A DNA stretch of 64,000 nt from an uncultured Ruminococcus sp. (lineage in GTDB: Bacteria; Bacillota; Clostridia; Oscillospirales; Acutalibacteraceae). The DNA lies in NCBI GenBank assembly GCA_902778175.1, contig CACYWT010000008.1:1-64000 (forward strand). Direction: 5' to 3'. Position 1 is the stretch's first letter, and the number at the start of each line of letters is the position of its first letter. The position numbers were made by a program, and so were the translations under genes. Under the pieces are notes generated by a model. That model was not told where the DNA came from. It worked only from the letters and a program-made list of their open reading frames with translations, and ran no database searches. Shown here in pieces: positions 242 to 28,510 of the stretch.

Positions 242-1000
242 TTATGTTTCAAATGAGTTTTCCTGTTTATCTTTTTCGTCTTGATGAGGTTGTTTAGATT
301 GTACCCATTTTAAAGATAATAAATATGCCGACCCCACAAGGAAAAAGAGTAAAACTGCAAAGGATTCAATAATAGCTTTTTTGTAGAAAAGTGGAGAATC
401 AAATTCTGACCATTGTTTGGCAGTATCAATTTGATCCTTTATTGGATAAATAAAACAAATAATTCCACTGGCAAGCATCAACATTGATGGAATCAAATGA
501 TTTGATATATTCAAGAAAGAAGTAATTATACAGATAATAACCACAATCGAAGCTATGACCTCATTTAACAACAAATATGTACCACGATCTAATTCATAAG
601 GAGTAAAGAATGAATATGAATTGGAGTTAGAATAATCAATATTCTCTCTAAATACAATAAATATAAATGCTATTAAATATAGTACCCAAAATATAGTATT
701 GAATAATATGCGCTGCTTTTCTTTAGATATTTTGTTTTCTATTTTTGATGTAAACTGATTTGAGGATTTCAGAAATAATAATATAATTATAGGAAAAGCA
801 GCAAACAAAGAATTGTTCATCACTTCATCATATCTTTCATTTATTATTGTTAAGATAATCCATAAACCAGCAACTATAATTGAAACCCATGTAGGAATTG
901 CAATTTTGGTTTTTGGGTTTATAGGATAGCCACAGTAAATACATTTCTGTGATTTATCAGAAATCTCATTTTGGCATTCTGGACATTTAATTAAAGACAT
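242..1000 (-). CDS. Zinc-ribbon membrane protein of unknown function
   Basis: A 252-residue protein starting MSLIKCPEC. Two CxxC pairs in the first 25 residues (CPEC and CIYC) form a zinc-ribbon like those of the DUF/zinc_ribbon_2 type, followed by about five or six hydrophobic segments between residues 35 and 230 and a charged, cytoplasmic-looking tail rich in K, E and Q. The ATG at 1000 is preferred to the GTG nine bases upstream because GGTGAT sits five bases before it. A perfect-spacing promoter (1035-1063) precedes it and a terminator follows, so it is a single-gene unit. Function is not recognised; such proteins are common in clostridia. Confidence 0.75.
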   Translation of the reverse strand: MSLIKCPECQNEISDKSQKCIYCGYPINPKTKIAIPTWVSIIVAGLWIILTIINERYDEVMNNSLFAAFPIIILLFLKSSNQFTSKIENKISKEKQRILFNTIFWVLYLIAFIFIVFRENIDYSNSNSYSFFTPYELDRGTYLLLNEVIASIVVIICIITSFLNISNHLIPSMLMLASGIICFIYPIKDQIDTAKQWSEFDSPLFYKKAIIESFAVLLFFLVGSAYLLSLKWVQSKQPHQDEKDKQENSFET

Positions 1001-19623: not shown

Positions 19624-19643
19624 ATCATTCGTAAGAAGAATAT

Positions 19644-19727
19644 GCCGGTGTGTTGGAATTGGCAGACGAGACAGACTCAAAATCTGTTGTCCGCAAGGGC
19701 GTGTGGGTTCGAGTCCCACCACCGGCA
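19644..19727 (+). tRNA. tRNA-Leu(CAA)
   Basis: 84 bases forming a class II tRNA. The acceptor stem pairs GCCGGTG with CACCGGC, the discriminator is A, and the anticodon stem ACAGA/TCTGT holds the loop CTCAAAA, giving anticodon CAA that reads UUG. A long variable arm (about TGTCCGCAAGGGCGT) and the T arm GTGGGTTCGAGTCCCAC are clear. The 3' CCA is not encoded and must be added after transcription. Confidence 0.95.
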
Positions 19728-19733
19728 CTCATT

Positions 19734-19762
19734 CCCCGAAGATCAGCTTCGGGGATTTTTTT
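19734..19762 (+). terminator. Terminator of tRNA-Leu
   Basis: CCCCGAAG/CTTCGGGG (19734-19741 and 19747-19754) with a five-base loop, then ATTTTTTT. Confidence 0.92.
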
Positions 19763-19945
19763 GTCCAGATACTTCATCAATAAAATTGCTTTACATATCA
19801 CGAAGATATTATCATATCATTTTTTCTCAGAACATCGGTATTTCTGTCGTTTTCTTCGGAATCAGGCTTTACAGCATAAATATACCCAGGATAATATACA
19901 ATAACAGATATTCAACCGTAAAGTTGGCAACTTGCCATGCAAACA

Positions 19946-21070
19946 TCAGTTTCTGCGAAATGATCTCCTTCCGTGGAAGCTCAAGACAAACAGAATACAA
20001 AGAATCAGCAATGCTACGCTTCCTGCCGGACCCGTCGAGGTCAGCCGGGCAGTTTCTCCTCCCATAGTAAGAAATACTTCTTCCGTCGGATTATAGAAAA
20101 TACAGAATATCATTACAATTATTCCGCTGAGTATCGAATTGATTATCCTGAATAGAAGATATAATGGTGTCATTATTTTATTATCTCCTGAAACAGACAG
20201 TATCTGCAAATGAACGCAAAGTCCACCGAAACCTGCAGCAAATGCAAACCACCAAAGCGGCAGACCTGAATCATTAACAGAACAACAGCCGCCTGTTACT
20301 TCAAGTATTATCGGAAAAATAACCTCTGATTCCCGTTTCCCTGCTCCGAAATATACGAGCGTTTCACAGAATAACCGCACAATACCCGAAGAATGAAGTA
20401 CTCTTGTAAAAACCGCAAAGACCGTTACCAATGCAGTCATTGTTATTACTGTTGAGGAAGAATCCCTTGCTGCGTTTATAAATGCTGATGACAGGATTAC
20501 TTTGTTTTTTTGTATTTTCCTGATATCAGCACTGTTTTTTTCCGTTGGCCGCATACGGCTTATTATTCCGAGAAAAATTCCTATAACAAGGCTTGATATA
20601 ACCTGTGAACAATACAGGATAATTCCGGCAGTATTATTTCTCAGCATAACGGCTCCTATTGCCGTAATCATGAAAGCAGGTCCCGGACATACACAAAAAT
20701 ACATCATCCTTCTCGCCTGCTCAAGAGTTATTTTTCCGTCAGAATATAATGCTCTGACACAGCCTGCTCCGACCGGATATCCTCCCGTAAGGCTGAGTAT
20801 TATCGGCGCAGCACATATCGGAGGAAGATCGAACAGTATCCTTACTACTGGCGAAAAAAATCTCCCTATTTTTTCATCAGTCCCGGTGTACATAACAAAC
20901 AAAGACAGCAGCATATAGGGAAACAGTGACGGGATCAGTATAAGTGCGCAGTTTTTCAGCCCCGTCAAGGCTCCTTCGGCGCAGTCGGACGGAAAAAATA
21001 TAAGTAACGCAAATAATAACAGTGAACATACAACCGCCGTATTCTTTTTTATCTCAGACCTTGATATCAT
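19946..21070 (-). CDS. ylbJ: Sporulation integral membrane protein YlbJ
   Basis: 374 residues with eight or nine hydrophobic segments and nucleoside-recognition (Gate) domain features such as SLTGGYPVGA and FCVCPGPAFMI. YlbJ is a mother-cell membrane protein required for late spore development. The ATG at 21070 is chosen because GGGTGGT lies four bases upstream. It is divergent from yqfC-yqfD, with 82 bases between the starts, where sigma-E-type promoters would be expected but none matches well. The 218 bases between its stop and the tRNA hold only the tRNA terminator and a short palindrome (AAGTTGGCAACTT at 19921). Confidence 0.9.
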   Translation of the reverse strand: MISRSEIKKNTAVVCSLLLFALLIFFPSDCAEGALTGLKNCALILIPSLFPYMLLSLFVMYTGTDEKIGRFFSPVVRILFDLPPICAAPIILSLTGGYPVGAGCVRALYSDGKITLEQARRMMYFCVCPGPAFMITAIGAVMLRNNTAGIILYCSQVISSLVIGIFLGIISRMRPTEKNSADIRKIQKNKVILSSAFINAARDSSSTVITMTALVTVFAVFTRVLHSSGIVRLFCETLVYFGAGKRESEVIFPIILEVTGGCCSVNDSGLPLWWFAFAAGFGGLCVHLQILSVSGDNKIMTPLYLLFRIINSILSGIIVMIFCIFYNPTEEVFLTMGGETARLTSTGPAGSVALLILCILFVLSFHGRRSFRRN

Positions 21071-21424: not shown

Positions 21425-22624
21425 ATGCTTATAGTCAGATTTTTACGATGGATCTTCGGATATAGCGAAATATGTGTCAACGGGAGATTTCCGGAAAGAT
21501 TTCTGAATCTTGCTTCAAGAAACGGTATTATTCTATGGGACCTACGTTCCGAAAAAGAAAACCTGTTTGCAAGTATCAAACGAAAAGAAACCAAAACTGC
21601 CCTGATATTCGCTAAGAAAACCGAATGTCAGCTTATCATAGTCAAGGAACACGGTCTTCCGTATTTTTGTCTGAAATACAGACACCGAAGCGGACTGCTT
21701 ATTGGAGCTATCCTTTCTTCTGCATTATGCTGCTTTATTTCATGCTGCATATGGAATATAGATATCCATGCTCCGGCAGGCATAAATGAATATGAAATAC
21801 GGCAGGAGCTTGCACAGCTCGGATTTCATGAGGGGATCATTTACTGTCAGGATCAGGTAAGAGATATTGAAACTAAGCTTTCCATGAATGATAAAAGAAT
21901 CAGCTGGGTCAGCATAAATGTAGCAGGAACAAATGCTTCGGTTGAGCTGAGCGCAGGTATTCCGGCTGTTCAAAGGGAAAACAATAATGAAAAAACCGTC
22001 AGCAATCTTAAATCGACTGCAGACGGTACTGTTACACGGATAAGTGTGCGTAAAGGAAGCAGTATTGTAAAAACCGGCGAGGGTGTACACAAGGGTCAGC
22101 TTCTTGTCAGCGGAATCGCCGAACTTCCCGACGGAAGCAGCCGTTTCTATGACAGTGATGGAGAGATTTATGCATCAACCTACAGAATTCTGGAACTATC
22201 GGTTCCGAAAAATATTGATAAAACTATTATTGACGATAATTATAGTGAAAAACTGAATATCACTTTTTTCGGGATAACAATTCCTGCTGTTTTTAATGGT
22301 TCGCCGTATGACAAGCGAATAATCCGAACCGAAAAATACAGAAGCAATATACTTGATCAGGATATTCCGCTGAAAAGTCAAAGAGAATTATTTTTTTCTT
22401 ACGAAGAAACTAAATACAATTATAATAAAACAGAAGCGGAAAAACTTCTCAGAAATCGGTTTCAGCTATATAAGCTTTTTGTGACCGGAAGCAGCGATAC
22501 AAGAATCCTCAGTGAAAATATCAGGCTGATCGAAGACAGTAACAGCTACAGATTAAGAATACAACTTACCACCGAAGAAAACATATGCGAAAAGTCATAT
22601 ATCAGCGTTAAAGAAATATCATAA
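21425..22624 (+). CDS. yqfD: Sporulation protein YqfD
   Basis: 399 residues. It begins with a short cytoplasmic part (SEICVNGRFPERFLNLASRNGI), has one membrane helix at about 90-112, and a large external part with VTRISVRKGSSIVKTGEGVHKGQLLVSG, a lipoyl-like hairpin also seen in secretion adaptor proteins. The YqfD family is needed for sporulation and grouped with stage IV. The ATG at 21425 has GAGG six bases upstream; the GTG at 21413 is less likely. It converges with the next gene, sharing six bases at the 3' ends. Confidence 0.9.
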   Translation: MLIVRFLRWIFGYSEICVNGRFPERFLNLASRNGIILWDLRSEKENLFASIKRKETKTALIFAKKTECQLIIVKEHGLPYFCLKYRHRSGLLIGAILSSALCCFISCCIWNIDIHAPAGINEYEIRQELAQLGFHEGIIYCQDQVRDIETKLSMNDKRISWVSINVAGTNASVELSAGIPAVQRENNNEKTVSNLKSTADGTVTRISVRKGSSIVKTGEGVHKGQLLVSGIAELPDGSSRFYDSDGEIYASTYRILELSVPKNIDKTIIDDNYSEKLNITFFGITIPAVFNGSPYDKRIIRTEKYRSNILDQDIPLKSQRELFFSYEETKYNYNKTEAEKLLRNRFQLYKLFVTGSSDTRILSENIRLIEDSNSYRLRIQLTTEENICEKSYISVKEIS

Positions 22625-23506
22625 AACGGAAATATCAAAATCAGGAACGTATTTTTCCGTTGCACTGTCAAGCTCCTGCGCAAAACCGTCAAGCGACATA
22701 TCGTCCAGCGCAGATAACACCTTATCGTATTCACGTTTGGTAATCGTTCGGTTTATTTCCGTATATTTTTTTGCATTACCGGCAGGAAAATACTGTCCCA
22801 TCAGGCTTATAAGGATATCACTTCCGAAATTCCTGTCAAGATAATCAAGAACCGCAATGGAATTTTTTGTATTTGACGGAAGTATCAGGTGACGGACAAT
22901 AGTTCCTCTCTGCATTATACCGTTATCATCAAAAATCGGCTTTCCTGTCTGTCTGACCATTTCAGCTATGGCAGGACCTGCATATTCGGCATAGTCCCCA
23001 GCACGGGAATACTTTGCCGAAAGCTCCGACGATATGTATTTCATATCCGGAAGATAGATATCAACTATACCCTCCAGCCTTTTAATAGTTTCTGCTTTTT
23101 CATATCCGCCGGTATTATAAACTACCGGGATATGGGGCTTATACTGTGTAAATGCATCAATTATCGCCTCAATATAAGGCGTCGGACTGACAAGATTAAT
23201 ATTATGTACTCCCAATTGTTCGAGACTCCTGATATGATCTACCAATTGTCCGACCGTAACGGTTTTACCCTTTCCGCCTGCGCTTATTTCGTAATTCTGG
23301 CAAAAAACGCATGACAGCACACAGCCCGAGAAAAAAATCGTCCCTGAGCCATTTGTACCGCTTATACACGGCTCCTCCCACATATGAGGAGCAGCGCGGG
23401 CTATTCTGGGAAGTGTTCCCATTTTACAGTAGCCCCTGCCGTATTCTTCATATCTTTCGGCATTACAGCTGCGCGGACAAAGATTACAGATATAGGTTTT
23501 CGTCAT
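22619..23506 (-). CDS. PflA-like radical SAM protein (COG1313)
   Basis: 295 residues. A first Cys group (CNLCPRSC, residues 7-14) precedes the radical SAM cluster C62, C66 and C69 (CVLSCVFCQN). Later segments (LVSPTPYIEAI, YLPDMKYIS, RHLILP) match the group annotated as pyruvate-formate-lyase-activating-like, PflX. No pyruvate formate-lyase or other glycyl radical enzyme lies nearby, so the target is unknown. AGGAGAT precedes the ATG at 23506. The 3' end overlaps yqfD on the other strand by six bases. Confidence 0.85.
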   Translation of the reverse strand: MTKTYICNLCPRSCNAERYEEYGRGYCKMGTLPRIARAAPHMWEEPCISGTNGSGTIFFSGCVLSCVFCQNYEISAGGKGKTVTVGQLVDHIRSLEQLGVHNINLVSPTPYIEAIIDAFTQYKPHIPVVYNTGGYEKAETIKRLEGIVDIYLPDMKYISSELSAKYSRAGDYAEYAGPAIAEMVRQTGKPIFDDNGIMQRGTIVRHLILPSNTKNSIAVLDYLDRNFGSDILISLMGQYFPAGNAKKYTEINRTITKREYDKVLSALDDMSLDGFAQELDSATEKYVPDFDISVL

Positions 23507-23550
23507 GTTGATCTCCTTATCAGAATATCGGAAACATAGTTCTTTATTCC

Positions 23551-23578
23551 AAAAAGAACGCTGCATATAACAGCGTTC
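23551..23578 (-). terminator. Terminator of the AdhE-like pseudoenzyme gene
   Basis: Minus-strand stem GAACGCTG/CAGCGTTC (23571-23578 and 23556-23563), seven-base loop, then TTTTT. Confidence 0.85.
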
Positions 23579-23592
23579 CTTTGCATTATTTA

Positions 23593-24606
23593 TTATTCAC
23601 ATTTCTTATTATCAAGACCGCAAAGAGATACAAGCTCCCCGATCTTATTTATAAATGATGTGACCCTTTCATCTTCACTGTCGCCCGGAAGTCCCAGTGC
23701 ATCAGCGAGAGCGGCATATCGTGCGGTGGATACTTCATTGTCGGCAGCGCTCAGACGGACAACATCTGCAAGATACGGAGCAGAACCGTCAACGGAAATT
23801 ATGCTTTCGGTATTCGCATAGGCGATTCCAGCCATTGCAGAAGCCTCACCAAGCTTTTCACAGCCACGGGGATCATTTGCCCCATTCTCAATAACAGAAG
23901 GAAGATATTCAAATACTCCCTTTATAGCTTCAATAGCAAAACCGTCCGTATATTCTGTTGCAGAAACTGAATCATAAGCATTGACTGCGCGGACAAGAGT
24001 ATTAAGACCGGCATCAGCAGATAAAGACTTGTTTTCAGGAAGCATAAGATCGCCGTCAACAACTGCCATATCCGGCATAAGCTCATAATCAGCAAATATC
24101 AGCTCGTCTTCCCCATCGGCGATTACTGCATACGGAGATACCTCCGATGCATTTCCGCTTATATCAGGAATAGTTACCAGTATCGACTTTGATCCGAGTT
24201 TAGGGAATTTTCCTTCTCTGCTCATAATATCATTGAATTTTCCTGAAAGCTCACTGAGAGAAACATCGGGATACTCATACATAAGACGGATCAGTTTTGA
24301 AGAATCAATAGCAGCATTGTTTCCGAATCCGATAATAACATCAGGCTCAAATAATGACGCCTGCTTTGCTCCTGATGTCACAGCTTTAATATCAGCATTG
24401 TCTTCAACAGCATAAAAGCATATATGCTGAATCCCCATCAAATTGAGATTATCTTCAAGCGTGGAAAGCTTTCCGTATTTATATAAATTCTTATCAGTGA
24501 CAATAAAGGCTTTCTTTTTTCCGTAAACAGCCCTCAGCTCATCAAGAGCAACGGATAAACAGCCTTTTTTTATATATAGCTTTTGTGGTGTTCTGAGCCA
24601 AAACAT
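23593..24606 (-). CDS. Degenerate iron-type alcohol dehydrogenase, paralogue of the AdhE C-terminal domain
   Basis: 337 residues that align from the first residue with residues 462 onward of the adjacent AdhE (MFWLRTPQKLYIKKGC against MLWFRAPEKVYFKKGC). The NAD-binding GGGSAMD of AdhE is here GNNAAID, TSSGTGSE is DISGNASE, and the iron ligands are gone: D665 and H669 of AdhE correspond to N202 and R206, and the stretch holding H735 and H749 is replaced by sequence with no His. About 55 C-terminal residues are missing. The frame is intact over 338 codons, so the gene seems kept. Oxidoreductase activity is very unlikely; a structural or regulatory role with AdhE is inferred. Confidence 0.88.
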   Translation of the reverse strand: MFWLRTPQKLYIKKGCLSVALDELRAVYGKKKAFIVTDKNLYKYGKLSTLEDNLNLMGIQHICFYAVEDNADIKAVTSGAKQASLFEPDVIIGFGNNAAIDSSKLIRLMYEYPDVSLSELSGKFNDIMSREGKFPKLGSKSILVTIPDISGNASEVSPYAVIADGEDELIFADYELMPDMAVVDGDLMLPENKSLSADAGLNTLVRAVNAYDSVSATEYTDGFAIEAIKGVFEYLPSVIENGANDPRGCEKLGEASAMAGIAYANTESIISVDGSAPYLADVVRLSAADNEVSTARYAALADALGLPGDSEDERVTSFINKIGELVSLCGLDNKKCE

Positions 24607-24645
24607 TGTATTCGCACCCTTTTATCAGAAATTGTTTTTTATGGA

Positions 24646-24674
24646 ATACGGCTCCGCAAAAAGCGAAGCCGCAT
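24646..24674 (-). other. Hairpin between adhE and its degenerate paralogue
   Basis: A 12-bp stem with two G-T type pairs (ATGCGGCTTCGC against GCGGAGCCGTAT) around five bases. On the minus strand it is not followed by a T run, so it could be a weak terminator or an RNA-processing or stability element between the two genes. Confidence 0.6.
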
Positions 24675-24687
24675 ATTATATGTGTAA

Positions 24688-27336
24688 TTATTCAAGACCC
24701 TCGGGAATATTATCACCGTAATAACCAAGCAGGAACATATGCTTGATCTCGCTGAACAGCGGATAACGCGGATTTGCGCCTGTGCACTGATCATCAAATG
24801 CATTTTCAACCATTTCATCAAGACTTGCAAGGAAGTCCTCTTCCTTTACGCCGTAATCGGCTATGGTCTTTTTGACGCCGCAAGTTTCCTTGAGAGCCTC
24901 GATCTTTTCGATAAAGAGTTCAAGAGTTTCGTTGTCGTCCTTTCCCTGAACGCCGCAGAAACGAGCACATTCGCAGTATCTTTCAAGAGTATGCGGATAA
25001 GCATACTGTGAGAAGGTACCCATCTTAGGCGGTACAGGAACAGCGTTGAAACGCATTACATGGCAGATGAGCAGCGCATTTGCAATACCGTGAGGAATAT
25101 GATGATATGCGCCGAGCTTGTGTGCCATAGAGTGGCAGACGCCAAGGAACGCATTTGCAAATGCCATACCAGCCATTGTGGAAGCGTTTGCCATCTTCTC
25201 TCTTGCGATCGGATCGTTTGCTCCGTTTTCGTATGCAGACGGCAGATATTCAAAAATGATCTTCATTGCCTGAAGTGCAAGACCGTCCGTATAGGGAGTT
25301 GCCATGATTGAAGCATAAGCCTCAAGCGCATGAGTAAGTGCGTCGATACCTGATGCACTTGTAAGTCCCTTAGGCTGATTCATCATATTGTCGGCATCAA
25401 TGATAGCCATATCCGGGAGAAGCTCATAATCAGCAAGCGGATATTTGATGTGTGTCTTTTCATCGGTAATAACAGCAAATGGAGTAACCTCGGAGCCTGT
25501 ACCTGATGACGTCGGGATAGCTATGAAATAAGCCTTCTCGCCCATCTTCGGGAATGTGTAAATACGCTTGCGGATATCCATGAAACGCATAGCCATATCC
25601 ATGAAATCAGCCTCGGGATGCTCATAAAGAACCCACATGATCTTGCCTGCATCCATTGCAGAACCGCCGCCGAGCGCAATGATAACATCAGGCTCGAACA
25701 GACGCATAGCCTCGGCACCTTCAAGAGCAGATGCAAGTGTCGGATCAGGCTGAACGTCAAAGAATGCGGTGTGCTGGATTCCAAGCTCATCAAGCTTGTC
25801 TTCGATCGGCTTAACGTAGCCGTTTTTGTAAAGGAAGGAATCTGTTACGATAAATGCCTTCTTTTTACCCATTACAGAACCAAGCTCGTCAAGAGCAACC
25901 GGCATACAGCCCTTCTTGAAATATACCTTTTCGGGAGCGCGGAACCAGAGCATATTCTCTCTGCGCTCTGCAACTCTCTTGATATTGAGGAGATGCTTTA
26001 CACCGACGTTTTCTGAAACTGAGTTTCCGCCCCATGAGCCGCAGCCAAGCGTGAGCGACGGTGTAAGTGCAAAGTTATAAAGATCACCGATACCGCCGTG
26101 TGATGACGGAGTGTTGATGAGAATACGGCAGGTCTTCATTGCATTATAGTGTTTCTCGATCTTTTCTGCCTGTGCAGGGTGGATATAGAGTGAAGATGTA
26201 TGACCGTAACCGCCGTCTGCGACAAGCTGTGCTGCCTTTGCAAGAGCCTCGTCAAATGTATCCGCCTTATACATTGCAAGAACCGGAGAAAGCTTCTCAT
26301 GTGCAAACTCTTCGCTTATATCAACAGATTCGACCTCACCGATAAGTATCTTTGTTGACTCGGGAACCTCAACACCTGCAAGCGCTGCAATTGTATGAGC
26401 CTTCTGACCAACGATCTTTGCATTAAGAGAACCGTTTATAATAATTGTCTTTCTTACCTTATCAAGCTCCTCTCCCTTGAGGAAGTAGCAGCCTCTGTAT
26501 TCAAATTCCTTCTTGACCTCATCATAGATGTCGCTGAGTACAGTCACACTCTGTTCGGAAGCACAGATCATACCGTTATCGAAAGTCTTTGAATGGATAA
26601 TCGAGTTTACAGCAACCTTTATATCAGCAGTGCTGTCGATTATAACGGGAGTATTGCCTGCGCCTACGCCGAGCGCCGGCTTTCCCGAAGAATATGCAGC
26701 CTTTACCATTCCGGGACCGCCTGTTGCAAGAATTGTATCGGAATTTCTCATAAGCTCGTTTGTAAGCTCAAGTGAAGGAACATCGATCCAACCGATAATA
26801 TCTTCGGGCGCACCTGCAGCAACTGCAGCGTCAAGTACGATCTTAGCAGCGGCAATTGTTGATTTCTTTGCACGGGGATGAGGGCTGATGATGATACCGT
26901 TTCTTGTCTTGAGGCATATGAGAGCCTTGAATATAGCGGTAGATGTCGGATTTGTTGTAGGAATAACCGCGCCTATAATACCTATAGGCTCAGCGATCTT
27001 CTTCAGACCGAACGCGCTGTCGTATTCAATAACGCCGCAGGTCTTTGTATCCTTATATTTATTGTAGATATATTCTGAGGCATAATGATTCTTGATAACC
27101 TTATCCTCAACAACGCCCATTCCTGTTTCCTCTACTGCCATTTTCGCAAGCGGAATACGAGCCTTGTTTGCAGCTATGGAAGCTGCCTTAAAGATCTTAT
27201 CTACCTGCTCCTGTGTAAAAGAGGCAAACACCTTCTGAGCCTGTCTTACCTGTTCAAGTTTTGCATTAAAGCTGTCAAGATCCTGTACAAGTGTAGTTTC
27301 TGCTGCCTTCGCTTCAACTTCATTTGTGTTAGCCAT
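24688..27336 (-). CDS. adhE: Bifunctional acetaldehyde-CoA/alcohol dehydrogenase
   Basis: 882 residues: aldehyde dehydrogenase domain (1-450) with catalytic C258 in GMICASEQS, then iron-dependent alcohol dehydrogenase domain (462-882) with GGGSAMDAGK (556-565) and metal ligands D665, H669, H735 and H749. It reduces acetyl-CoA through acetaldehyde to ethanol, reoxidising two NADH, and the family assembles into spirosome filaments. The ATG at 27336 follows GGAGG by nine bases. A consensus promoter (27470-27498) gives a leader of about 127 bases with no known riboswitch recognised. A degenerate copy of its second half follows 81 bases downstream. Confidence 0.97.
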   Translation of the reverse strand: MANTNEVEAKAAETTLVQDLDSFNAKLEQVRQAQKVFASFTQEQVDKIFKAASIAANKARIPLAKMAVEETGMGVVEDKVIKNHYASEYIYNKYKDTKTCGVIEYDSAFGLKKIAEPIGIIGAVIPTTNPTSTAIFKALICLKTRNGIIISPHPRAKKSTIAAAKIVLDAAVAAGAPEDIIGWIDVPSLELTNELMRNSDTILATGGPGMVKAAYSSGKPALGVGAGNTPVIIDSTADIKVAVNSIIHSKTFDNGMICASEQSVTVLSDIYDEVKKEFEYRGCYFLKGEELDKVRKTIIINGSLNAKIVGQKAHTIAALAGVEVPESTKILIGEVESVDISEEFAHEKLSPVLAMYKADTFDEALAKAAQLVADGGYGHTSSLYIHPAQAEKIEKHYNAMKTCRILINTPSSHGGIGDLYNFALTPSLTLGCGSWGGNSVSENVGVKHLLNIKRVAERRENMLWFRAPEKVYFKKGCMPVALDELGSVMGKKKAFIVTDSFLYKNGYVKPIEDKLDELGIQHTAFFDVQPDPTLASALEGAEAMRLFEPDVIIALGGGSAMDAGKIMWVLYEHPEADFMDMAMRFMDIRKRIYTFPKMGEKAYFIAIPTSSGTGSEVTPFAVITDEKTHIKYPLADYELLPDMAIIDADNMMNQPKGLTSASGIDALTHALEAYASIMATPYTDGLALQAMKIIFEYLPSAYENGANDPIAREKMANASTMAGMAFANAFLGVCHSMAHKLGAYHHIPHGIANALLICHVMRFNAVPVPPKMGTFSQYAYPHTLERYCECARFCGVQGKDDNETLELFIEKIEALKETCGVKKTIADYGVKEEDFLASLDEMVENAFDDQCTGANPRYPLFSEIKHMFLLGYYGDNIPEGLE

Positions 27337-27469
27337 AGTATTATCCTCCAATTAGTTATTATCAAAGCTGCTCCGGGTTTTCAGAGTGATAATTTTATCC
27401 CTGTTCCGTATCCGACGCCATATTCATGCATCAGACAGCAAGACGCAGCCTTCTACTTTGCCATACATT

Positions 27470-27498
27470 ATTATATATAATTGTAAAAAAGTTGTCAA
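27470..27498 (-). promoter_or_regulatory. Consensus promoter of adhE
   Basis: Minus-strand TTGACA (27493-27498), 17 bases, TATAAT (27470-27475), both perfect. A lone TTGTTAA half-site resembling Rex sites lies upstream at about 27523 but lacks its second half. Confidence 0.85.
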
Positions 27499-27592
27499 TA
27501 TCATTTTCCCCTTTTTTACTGCTTGTTAATCATATTCGGAAAAATAACCTGTTTAATGAATAAATATCATTTTTTCTTGTCATTTTCACAGT

Positions 27593-28510
27593 TCATTCAA
27601 CATCACTATGATTCTCTATAAGCCTGCGTATGGTACTGCGCCTGAGCATCCTTCCGCGAAACGAAACATATTCATCATCAGGACCTTTTGTAAGTACTCT
27701 CAGCTCTTTGATTTCTGCCGGGGTTATCTCTGAAAAATTATTGCTTTTCTTTACGGCGGCGTTTTCTGTTTCTTCCTGATACGGAAGTACTATCTGTTTT
27801 TCTATCGCCTGATAGGTATTGAAAACGATAATATATGTACAAAGAACAGGCAGAAGAAACAAGGTCGATATTACGCCGACTATCAGGATAACTATTGCAT
27901 TTCCGGCTACAACATTCATCGTATAAAGTATAATTGCGATAAGCGATATCGAAAGTATTGTCTTGAAATGACCGAATAAACCTGTTACGACCAGAACAAC
28001 TGAGTTTTTTATTATTTCTGAAAATTTCAGCTTTACTGATACAGACATTGTAAGGATATTATTCTGAAAGCAGATAAAAAACAGTAATCCGATAAGGCTC
28101 AGGATAAAAGAGATAAACATTGCAGCTCCTTCAATGCCCGTCCGATAATAAGAAAATGTTATGAACATTCCTATCCCTACAAAGTAAAATATCAGAGAAT
28201 CAAGGAAAAAATAAAGTGCATTTTCCTTGATACCCTTGATATAATCCTTGAACAAAGAAAGCTTTTGTCCCCTTACAACTTTAAGGCAGACATAAAACAA
28301 GCCTCCGACAAAGGGTGATATAAGCGGGATAAACAGAAAAAGCGAAAATATATTCAGCAGCCCGAAAAGGCTAAGGATATATATTATTCCCCCGAAAAAT
28401 GCCATCGGAACACATATCATCAGATTAGCAAGGGTGAGCTTGCCGACATTTTCAAAATAGCCGACAAAAAAATCTGTCAGCGAATATTTTTTACCTTTGT
28501 TTTTTGTCAT
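27593..28510 (-). CDS. Six-helix membrane protein of unknown function
   Basis: 305 residues with about six hydrophobic segments (for example MICVPMAFFGGIIYILSLFG and AIVILIVGVISTLFLLPVL) and a cytoplasmic C-terminal tail of some 65 residues ending in a basic helix (RGRMLRRSTIRRLIENH). The layout is that of YesL/DUF624-like or related membrane proteins but I cannot fix a family. The ATG at 28510 follows GGGAAG at a longish distance. It lies 28 bases after the spoIIM-like gene and is probably co-transcribed with it, which may hint at a sporulation link. Confidence 0.7.
   Translation of the reverse strand: MTKNKGKKYSLTDFFVGYFENVGKLTLANLMICVPMAFFGGIIYILSLFGLLNIFSLFLFIPLISPFVGGLFYVCLKVVRGQKLSLFKDYIKGIKENALYFFLDSLIFYFVGIGMFITFSYYRTGIEGAAMFISFILSLIGLLFFICFQNNILTMSVSVKLKFSEIIKNSVVLVVTGLFGHFKTILSISLIAIILYTMNVVAGNAIVILIVGVISTLFLLPVLCTYIIVFNTYQAIEKQIVLPYQEETENAAVKKSNNFSEITPAEIKELRVLTKGPDDEYVSFRGRMLRRSTIRRLIENHSDVE

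Follow-up and report, generated by a model that had tools for sequence, protein, structure and literature searches.

The gene downstream of adhE

The window (the whole stretch of DNA that was analysed, 64,000 nucleotides from an uncultured Ruminococcus sp.) carries the gene for the bifunctional aldehyde-alcohol dehydrogenase AdhE and, 81 bp downstream in the same orientation, a second gene whose product resembles the alcohol dehydrogenase (ADH) half of AdhE. Residue positions follow E. coli AdhE numbering unless otherwise stated, and structural roles are taken from the papers cited. The features of the locus are:

24688..27351 (-): adhE, bifunctional aldehyde-alcohol dehydrogenase, parent and presumed partner (NCBIfam PRK13805.1, 1394 bits against a cutoff of 951)
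24646..24674 (-): 12-bp hairpin in the gap between adhE and the pseudoenzyme gene, with no T-run after the stem
23593..24606 (-): AdhE-derived pseudoenzyme gene, 337 aa, ADH-like, metal site absent
24568..24582 (-): codons 9–13 (KLYIK), first beta-strand, equivalent of the I460/F462 pocket by alignment (role from PMC6778083)
24001..24003 (-): codon 202 (Asn), lost iron ligand, equivalent of E. coli D653 by alignment (role from PMC7470043)
23950..23952 (-): codon 219 (Tyr in TEYTDG), equivalent of the F670 knob by alignment (role from PMC6778083)
23824..23826 (-): codon 261 (Ile in AGIAYAN), equivalent of the pocket residue I712 by alignment
23551..23583 (-): A/T-flanked hairpin after the pseudoenzyme gene, AAAGGAACGCTG..CAGCGTTCTTTTT, of the type that follows adhE in genomes without the second gene

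The reading frame at 23593–24606 (-) consists of 337 open codons followed by TAA, so that the stop-free gene of 338 codons described by the sequence-only reading is present as such, together with the shared orientation and the 81-base gap. BLASTP aligns the product with residues 467–826 of the neighbouring AdhE (41% identity over 360 aa, E 5e-92), in keeping with the match at about 462–790 proposed earlier. The protein belongs to the Fe-ADH fold (Pfam Fe-ADH, 97.6 bits against a cutoff of 31.3, E 7.8e-28), with a full N-terminal domain and only the first 72 of the 194 positions of the C-terminal domain, and a solved AdhE chain matches it at 2.5e-80; by these matches the similarity to AdhE is far above chance. 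It does not qualify as a bifunctional AdhE (268 bits against the equivalog cutoff of 951), the aldehyde dehydrogenase (ALDH) half being absent, and Pfam gave no ALDH match across its 337 aa. Searching the same genome returned AdhE and one further, distant match; no second copy of the pseudoenzyme was found there. Descent from a monofunctional Fe-ADH was rejected on account of the AdhE-type loop 2 and of the branching from the AdhE of its own genus. The next gene here, at 22619–23566, encodes a radical-SAM protein weakly similar to PFL-activating enzymes; in most relatives the radical-SAM gene sits after adhE.

Catalytic features and the ADH-ADH contact surface

The iron ligands of AdhE are D653, H657, H723 and H737 (PMC7470043). 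The first two, D665 and H669 in the neighbouring AdhE, are replaced by N202 and R206 in the pseudoenzyme, and the segment of H723 and H737 has become an unrelated, His-free stretch, leaving N, R, a gap and S in place of the Asp-His-His-His site. The NAD loop GGGSAMD reads GNNAAID, with loss of the GGGS motif, and about 61 C-terminal residues of AdhE are unmatched. The earlier claims that the NAD loop and all four iron ligands are lost, and that the last 55 residues of AdhE are missing, therefore hold for the window member. Among its orthologues (ADH-like proteins of 295–403 aa, hereafter long forms) the complete metal site is absent from all 23 that were aligned: D653 is altered in every one, H723 and H737 are essentially gone throughout, and the H657 position is His in 12 and another residue in 11. 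The loss of the NAD loop is not a trait of the whole family, since GGGS persists in the long forms G006, G014 and G054; D487 is retained by some members. Little of loop 3 and the C-tail survives in the long forms, and the segments that are mostly deleted or unalignable in the family comprise 758–772, the loop sealing the ALDH-ADH channel in AdhE (PMC7080775), the inter-helical segment 814–823 and the C-tail. The pseudoenzyme has the AdhE-type loop 2, the loop that touches ALDH in AdhE.

Catalytic residues have thus been lost within a conserved family of intact frames, as in a pseudoenzyme, and the best explanation of these sequences is a product that would be incapable of Fe-dependent alcohol dehydrogenation. 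Persistence as an enzyme with altered or metal-free chemistry is scarcely credible: the Rossmann half is intact and the NAD-related features survive in the members just named, but no long form has the metal site, the window member has lost the NAD loop as well, and the short forms described below are without the catalytic half.

An AF2 model of the pseudoenzyme (39 sequences; pLDDT 91.9, pTM 0.90) shows the C-terminal half as helical even with the deletions, and its best solved match is the ADH domain of E. coli AdhE (6scg; Z 46.2, 1.8 Å over 333 residues). An ADH-type fold is confidently predicted. As a rough docking query, use was made of the natural in-frame read-through, in which the AdhE ADH domain, the 27-codon gap and the pseudoenzyme follow one another; AF2 placed the parts of this fusion unconfidently (pTM 0.50), a result that weighs slightly against docking but was obtained without a positive control and with only four close sequences covering the pseudoenzyme part.

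AdhE dimers are joined through their ALDH halves and polymerise through contacts between ADH halves (PMC7080775, PMC6778083). At the ADH-ADH contact F670 lies inside a pocket formed by I460, F462 and I712, and F670 mutants are devoid of spirosomes (PMC6778083); in C. thermocellum position 670 is Tyr (PMC12204686). All 23 long forms have Tyr at 670 and Ile at 712, position 460 is V, I or L in 22 of them, and position 462 is Phe in 19 and Ile in four. The corresponding statistics are modest, resting on four residues with p-values of 0.03–0.05: among the AdhE-invariant columns present in the family, similarity is 0.95 at the four contact sites vs 0.69 elsewhere (p=0.029) and 0.50 at the NAD-contact sites vs 0.70 elsewhere (p=0.039), and 952 of 20000 random placements equalled or bettered the three interface windows jointly. 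Similarity to AdhE peaks in the family at window 457–467, the pocket strand. Retained ADH-ADH contact residues combined with an absent ALDH half are the anatomy that a spirosome cap would have, and the retained surface could in part stem from homodimerisation or plain fold constraints. Dimers of the related FucO reportedly swap the first beta-strand, a lead rather than evidence.

Distribution, origin and selection

The adhE regions of 64 genomes of the genus were compared, and the 3' flank of adhE was readable in 54. A long form follows in 24 (two cut by a contig end), a remnant of 116–130 aa in nine, and neither in 21; in these non-carriers a radical-SAM or other non-ADH gene lies 3' of adhE, usually past a hairpin. 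Members of the family always stand directly after adhE. Two relatives, 84% and 59%, come from MAGs of uncultured Ruminococcus sp. In wider searches, with cutoffs that could overlook strongly diverged forms, no free-standing form was found in about 280 genomes of the order and family (strict cutoff 1e-60), nor in about 390 family genomes searched with a short-form query, whose matches outside the genus all lay in frames of AdhE size or of at least 550 aa. A contig scan gave three clear long forms among its best 80 matches, the others spanning an AdhE-like ADH half.

This invariable position directly after adhE weighs against an independent function, in which a homodimer would act apart from AdhE, for instance as an ErcA-like regulator, and adjacency would reflect descent and shared expression. 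Homodimers could use the ADH-ADH surface equally well, and an Fe-ADH-like regulatory protein, ErcA, does exist in NCBIfam, but the pseudoenzyme scores 107 bits against the 550 of the ErcA cutoff and the short remnants could hardly keep an ADH-like independent role, so that we regard this explanation as improbable.

The 23 long forms make up one clade inside the AdhE of this genus (SH-aLRT 99, ADH-half tree). One host clade of the full AdhE tree (support 80) contains 27 classified species, every one of which is a carrier, 20 of a long and seven of a short form. Since the whole clade carries a form and G054 is the single outlier, two changes suffice to account for presence and absence, and as judged from these sequences the family traces to a single origin event. 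In G054 (L171), alone among the carriers, AdhE lies outside the carrier clade. The pseudoenzyme of G054 branches basally and retains GGGS; a second duplication, transfer or gene conversion are suggested alternatives.

Frames are intact in 22 of 22 complete long orthologues; a TGA flagged in G025 and G040 is apparently the terminal stop, both ORFs being complete (327 and 328 aa, respectively). Pairwise Nei-Gojobori estimates, many of them close to saturation, give dN/dS of 0.11–0.27 for the closest long-form pairs and 0.08–0.29 for the short forms (about 0.15–0.2 overall for the family), and about 0.01–0.07 for the ADH half of AdhE. These values indicate that the pseudoenzyme is maintained by selection, yet evolves faster than its parent. 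The rate, some ten times that of AdhE, and the strong divergence of G057 and G010 are what a functionless duplicate in decay would display, but dN/dS lies well below 1, every complete frame is open, the gene is retained throughout the clade and the short forms are conserved among themselves; a pseudogene was rejected on these grounds, and we consider decay very improbable. Orthologues missing from relatives, frames broken by stops or a Ka/Ks near 1 had been named in advance by the sequence-only reading as observations that would tell against it, and none of them occurred (24 long and nine short forms in 54 flanks; frames and dN/dS as given above). Its proposal of a pseudoenzyme is well supported by the intact frames, the dN/dS values, the single origin and the loss of the metal site in all long forms.

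The nine remnants (L118, L124, L129, L132, L139, L142, L149, L150 and L155; one sequence begins MSCISLPKKIYFKEGSLPVALDELKGMKRAF...) lie directly after adhE and retain the segments 451–475, 478–488, 497–517 and 526–553 together with small pieces. They comprise the pocket strand and part of the Rossmann half; loop 2 and the whole catalytic half are missing. The 712 helix and the knob at 670 are absent too, which would leave one usable side of the contact. Pfam found no family for the one short form tested. In a 116-column tree the short forms are one clade that groups with 18 long forms (97/96); the branches are long, and descent from a long form is accordingly likely, not certain. Most short genes begin 3–15 bp past the stop codon of adhE, in gaps too short for a hairpin; a GAGG-like site is common there. 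L139 (G045) is separated from adhE by about 100 bp of alternating CAATGTG/CAATGTA repeats, compared with 3–15 bp in its relatives.

Expression context and proposed role

A stem-loop is present in all 24 long-form gaps (z -2.3 to -6.6), and in none of the 24 is it followed by a 3' run of at least four T. The sequence of the stem-loop varies between species (24646–24674 and 23 other genomes), and no Rfam match was found in 23400–28000. Genomes without the second gene usually have an A/T-flanked hairpin of the type AAAAGAACGCTGTAC..GTACAGCGTTCTTTT immediately behind adhE, whereas carriers generally have this type of hairpin behind the pseudoenzyme or short gene instead. As the terminator of adhE type stands after the second gene and the gap hairpin is free of a T-run, we infer that both genes are probably co-transcribed as one transcript. 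The gap stem-loop is possibly an RNA processing or stability element, and our guess is that it reduces the yield of the second protein.

The simplest reading of the pseudoenzyme is that of a filament cap, because a free ADH-like subunit without an ALDH half can occupy, but not extend, an end. The ADH half at the 3' end of adhE would have been duplicated in tandem within the adhE transcription unit; the product would pair with the ADH domain left free on the outermost AdhE and, having no ALDH half with which to continue the chain, would terminate the filament. The ratio of pseudoenzyme to AdhE would then set spirosome length, and hence activity or direction, and in one branch the protein would have shrunk to 116–130 residues that keep one side of the ADH-ADH interface. 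AdhE of this genus is assumed, from homology, to form spirosomes. That the pseudoenzyme binds AdhE through the ADH-ADH surface and so ends spirosomes seems to us a little short of an even chance. The sequence-only reading had guessed at a capping or regulatory subunit, and that guess is indirectly supported (contact residues kept; ALDH half, loop 3 and C-tail absent; co-transcription likely; interface strand kept by the remnants), whereas the contact with AdhE, like capping and any effect on flux, is something that we only infer.

A regulator that binds AdhE without capping it, as a chaperone, a gate of the ALDH-ADH channel or a switch by which NAD would shift spirosomes between their compact and extended states, is unlikely, though to be taken seriously. 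Such a protein might bind through the ADH surface or perhaps loop 2, which is present; linkage to adhE and likely co-transcription apply to it equally, some members retain the GGGS loop and D487, and the extension of spirosomes has been connected with NAD binding by ADH domains (PMC7286902). Against it, the NAD site is not conserved family-wide, loop 3 is lost and the short forms are without loop 2.

Three known systems bear comparison. The ADH domain of AdhE (group III Fe-alcohol dehydrogenase; PDB 6scg, 3zdr, 8uhw) shares the fold, loop 2 and the contact residues and is the source of the pseudoenzyme, which in contrast is a separate gene without the ALDH half, metal site, loop 3 and C-tail, and with an altered NAD loop. 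ErcA (NCBIfam NF041833), an alcohol dehydrogenase-like regulatory protein whose name implies regulation, has the Fe-ADH fold in common with it; the pseudoenzyme differs in deriving from AdhE and in its score against the model. Regulatory pseudoenzymes beside active paralogues, such as pseudopeptidases (PMC11266112), are likewise dead paralogues under selection and linked to an active relative, but here the partner is a filament-forming bifunctional enzyme and the dead copy is one half of it, further cut to 116–130 aa. Dead paralogues that regulate their parents are thus already known; one linked to spirosomes, whose family shrinks stepwise to a remnant of 116 residues, is new as far as the literature search reached. 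In agreement with the earlier remark that no description of such a partner was known, a literature search, with most subscription papers outside its scope, found no pseudoenzyme, cap, length regulator or inactive paralogue of AdhE.

Variation in AdhE polymer length and its possible active regulation have been stated as an open question (PMC6778083, PMC12173503). In E. coli, spirosome length reportedly alters the reverse and not the forward reaction, and short spirosomes reportedly favour ethanol oxidation (PMC12173503); given the reported effect of length, a cap could tune ethanol use versus production. The full proposal of an operon-encoded, dedicated filament cap, in which, in a clade of gut Ruminococcus, a dead tandem copy of the adhE ADH half sets spirosome length and in one lineage has been pared to an interface module of about 116 residues, is put forward tentatively, with the balance against it. 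If true, the literature searched would hold no earlier example of a regulator dedicated to AdhE filament length. A co-encoded dead paralogue with its interface retained makes regulation of spirosome length directly testable, and the pseudoenzyme may serve as a natural tool for shortening spirosomes in ethanol-producing strains. From the full pseudoenzyme to the 116-aa remnant, the family would also offer a stepwise series from enzyme copy to binding module.

Elsewhere in the window, a tRNA-Leu (CAA) gene lies at 19644–19728, and the ORFs at 19642–20067 and 19650–19904 that overlap it are probably spurious.
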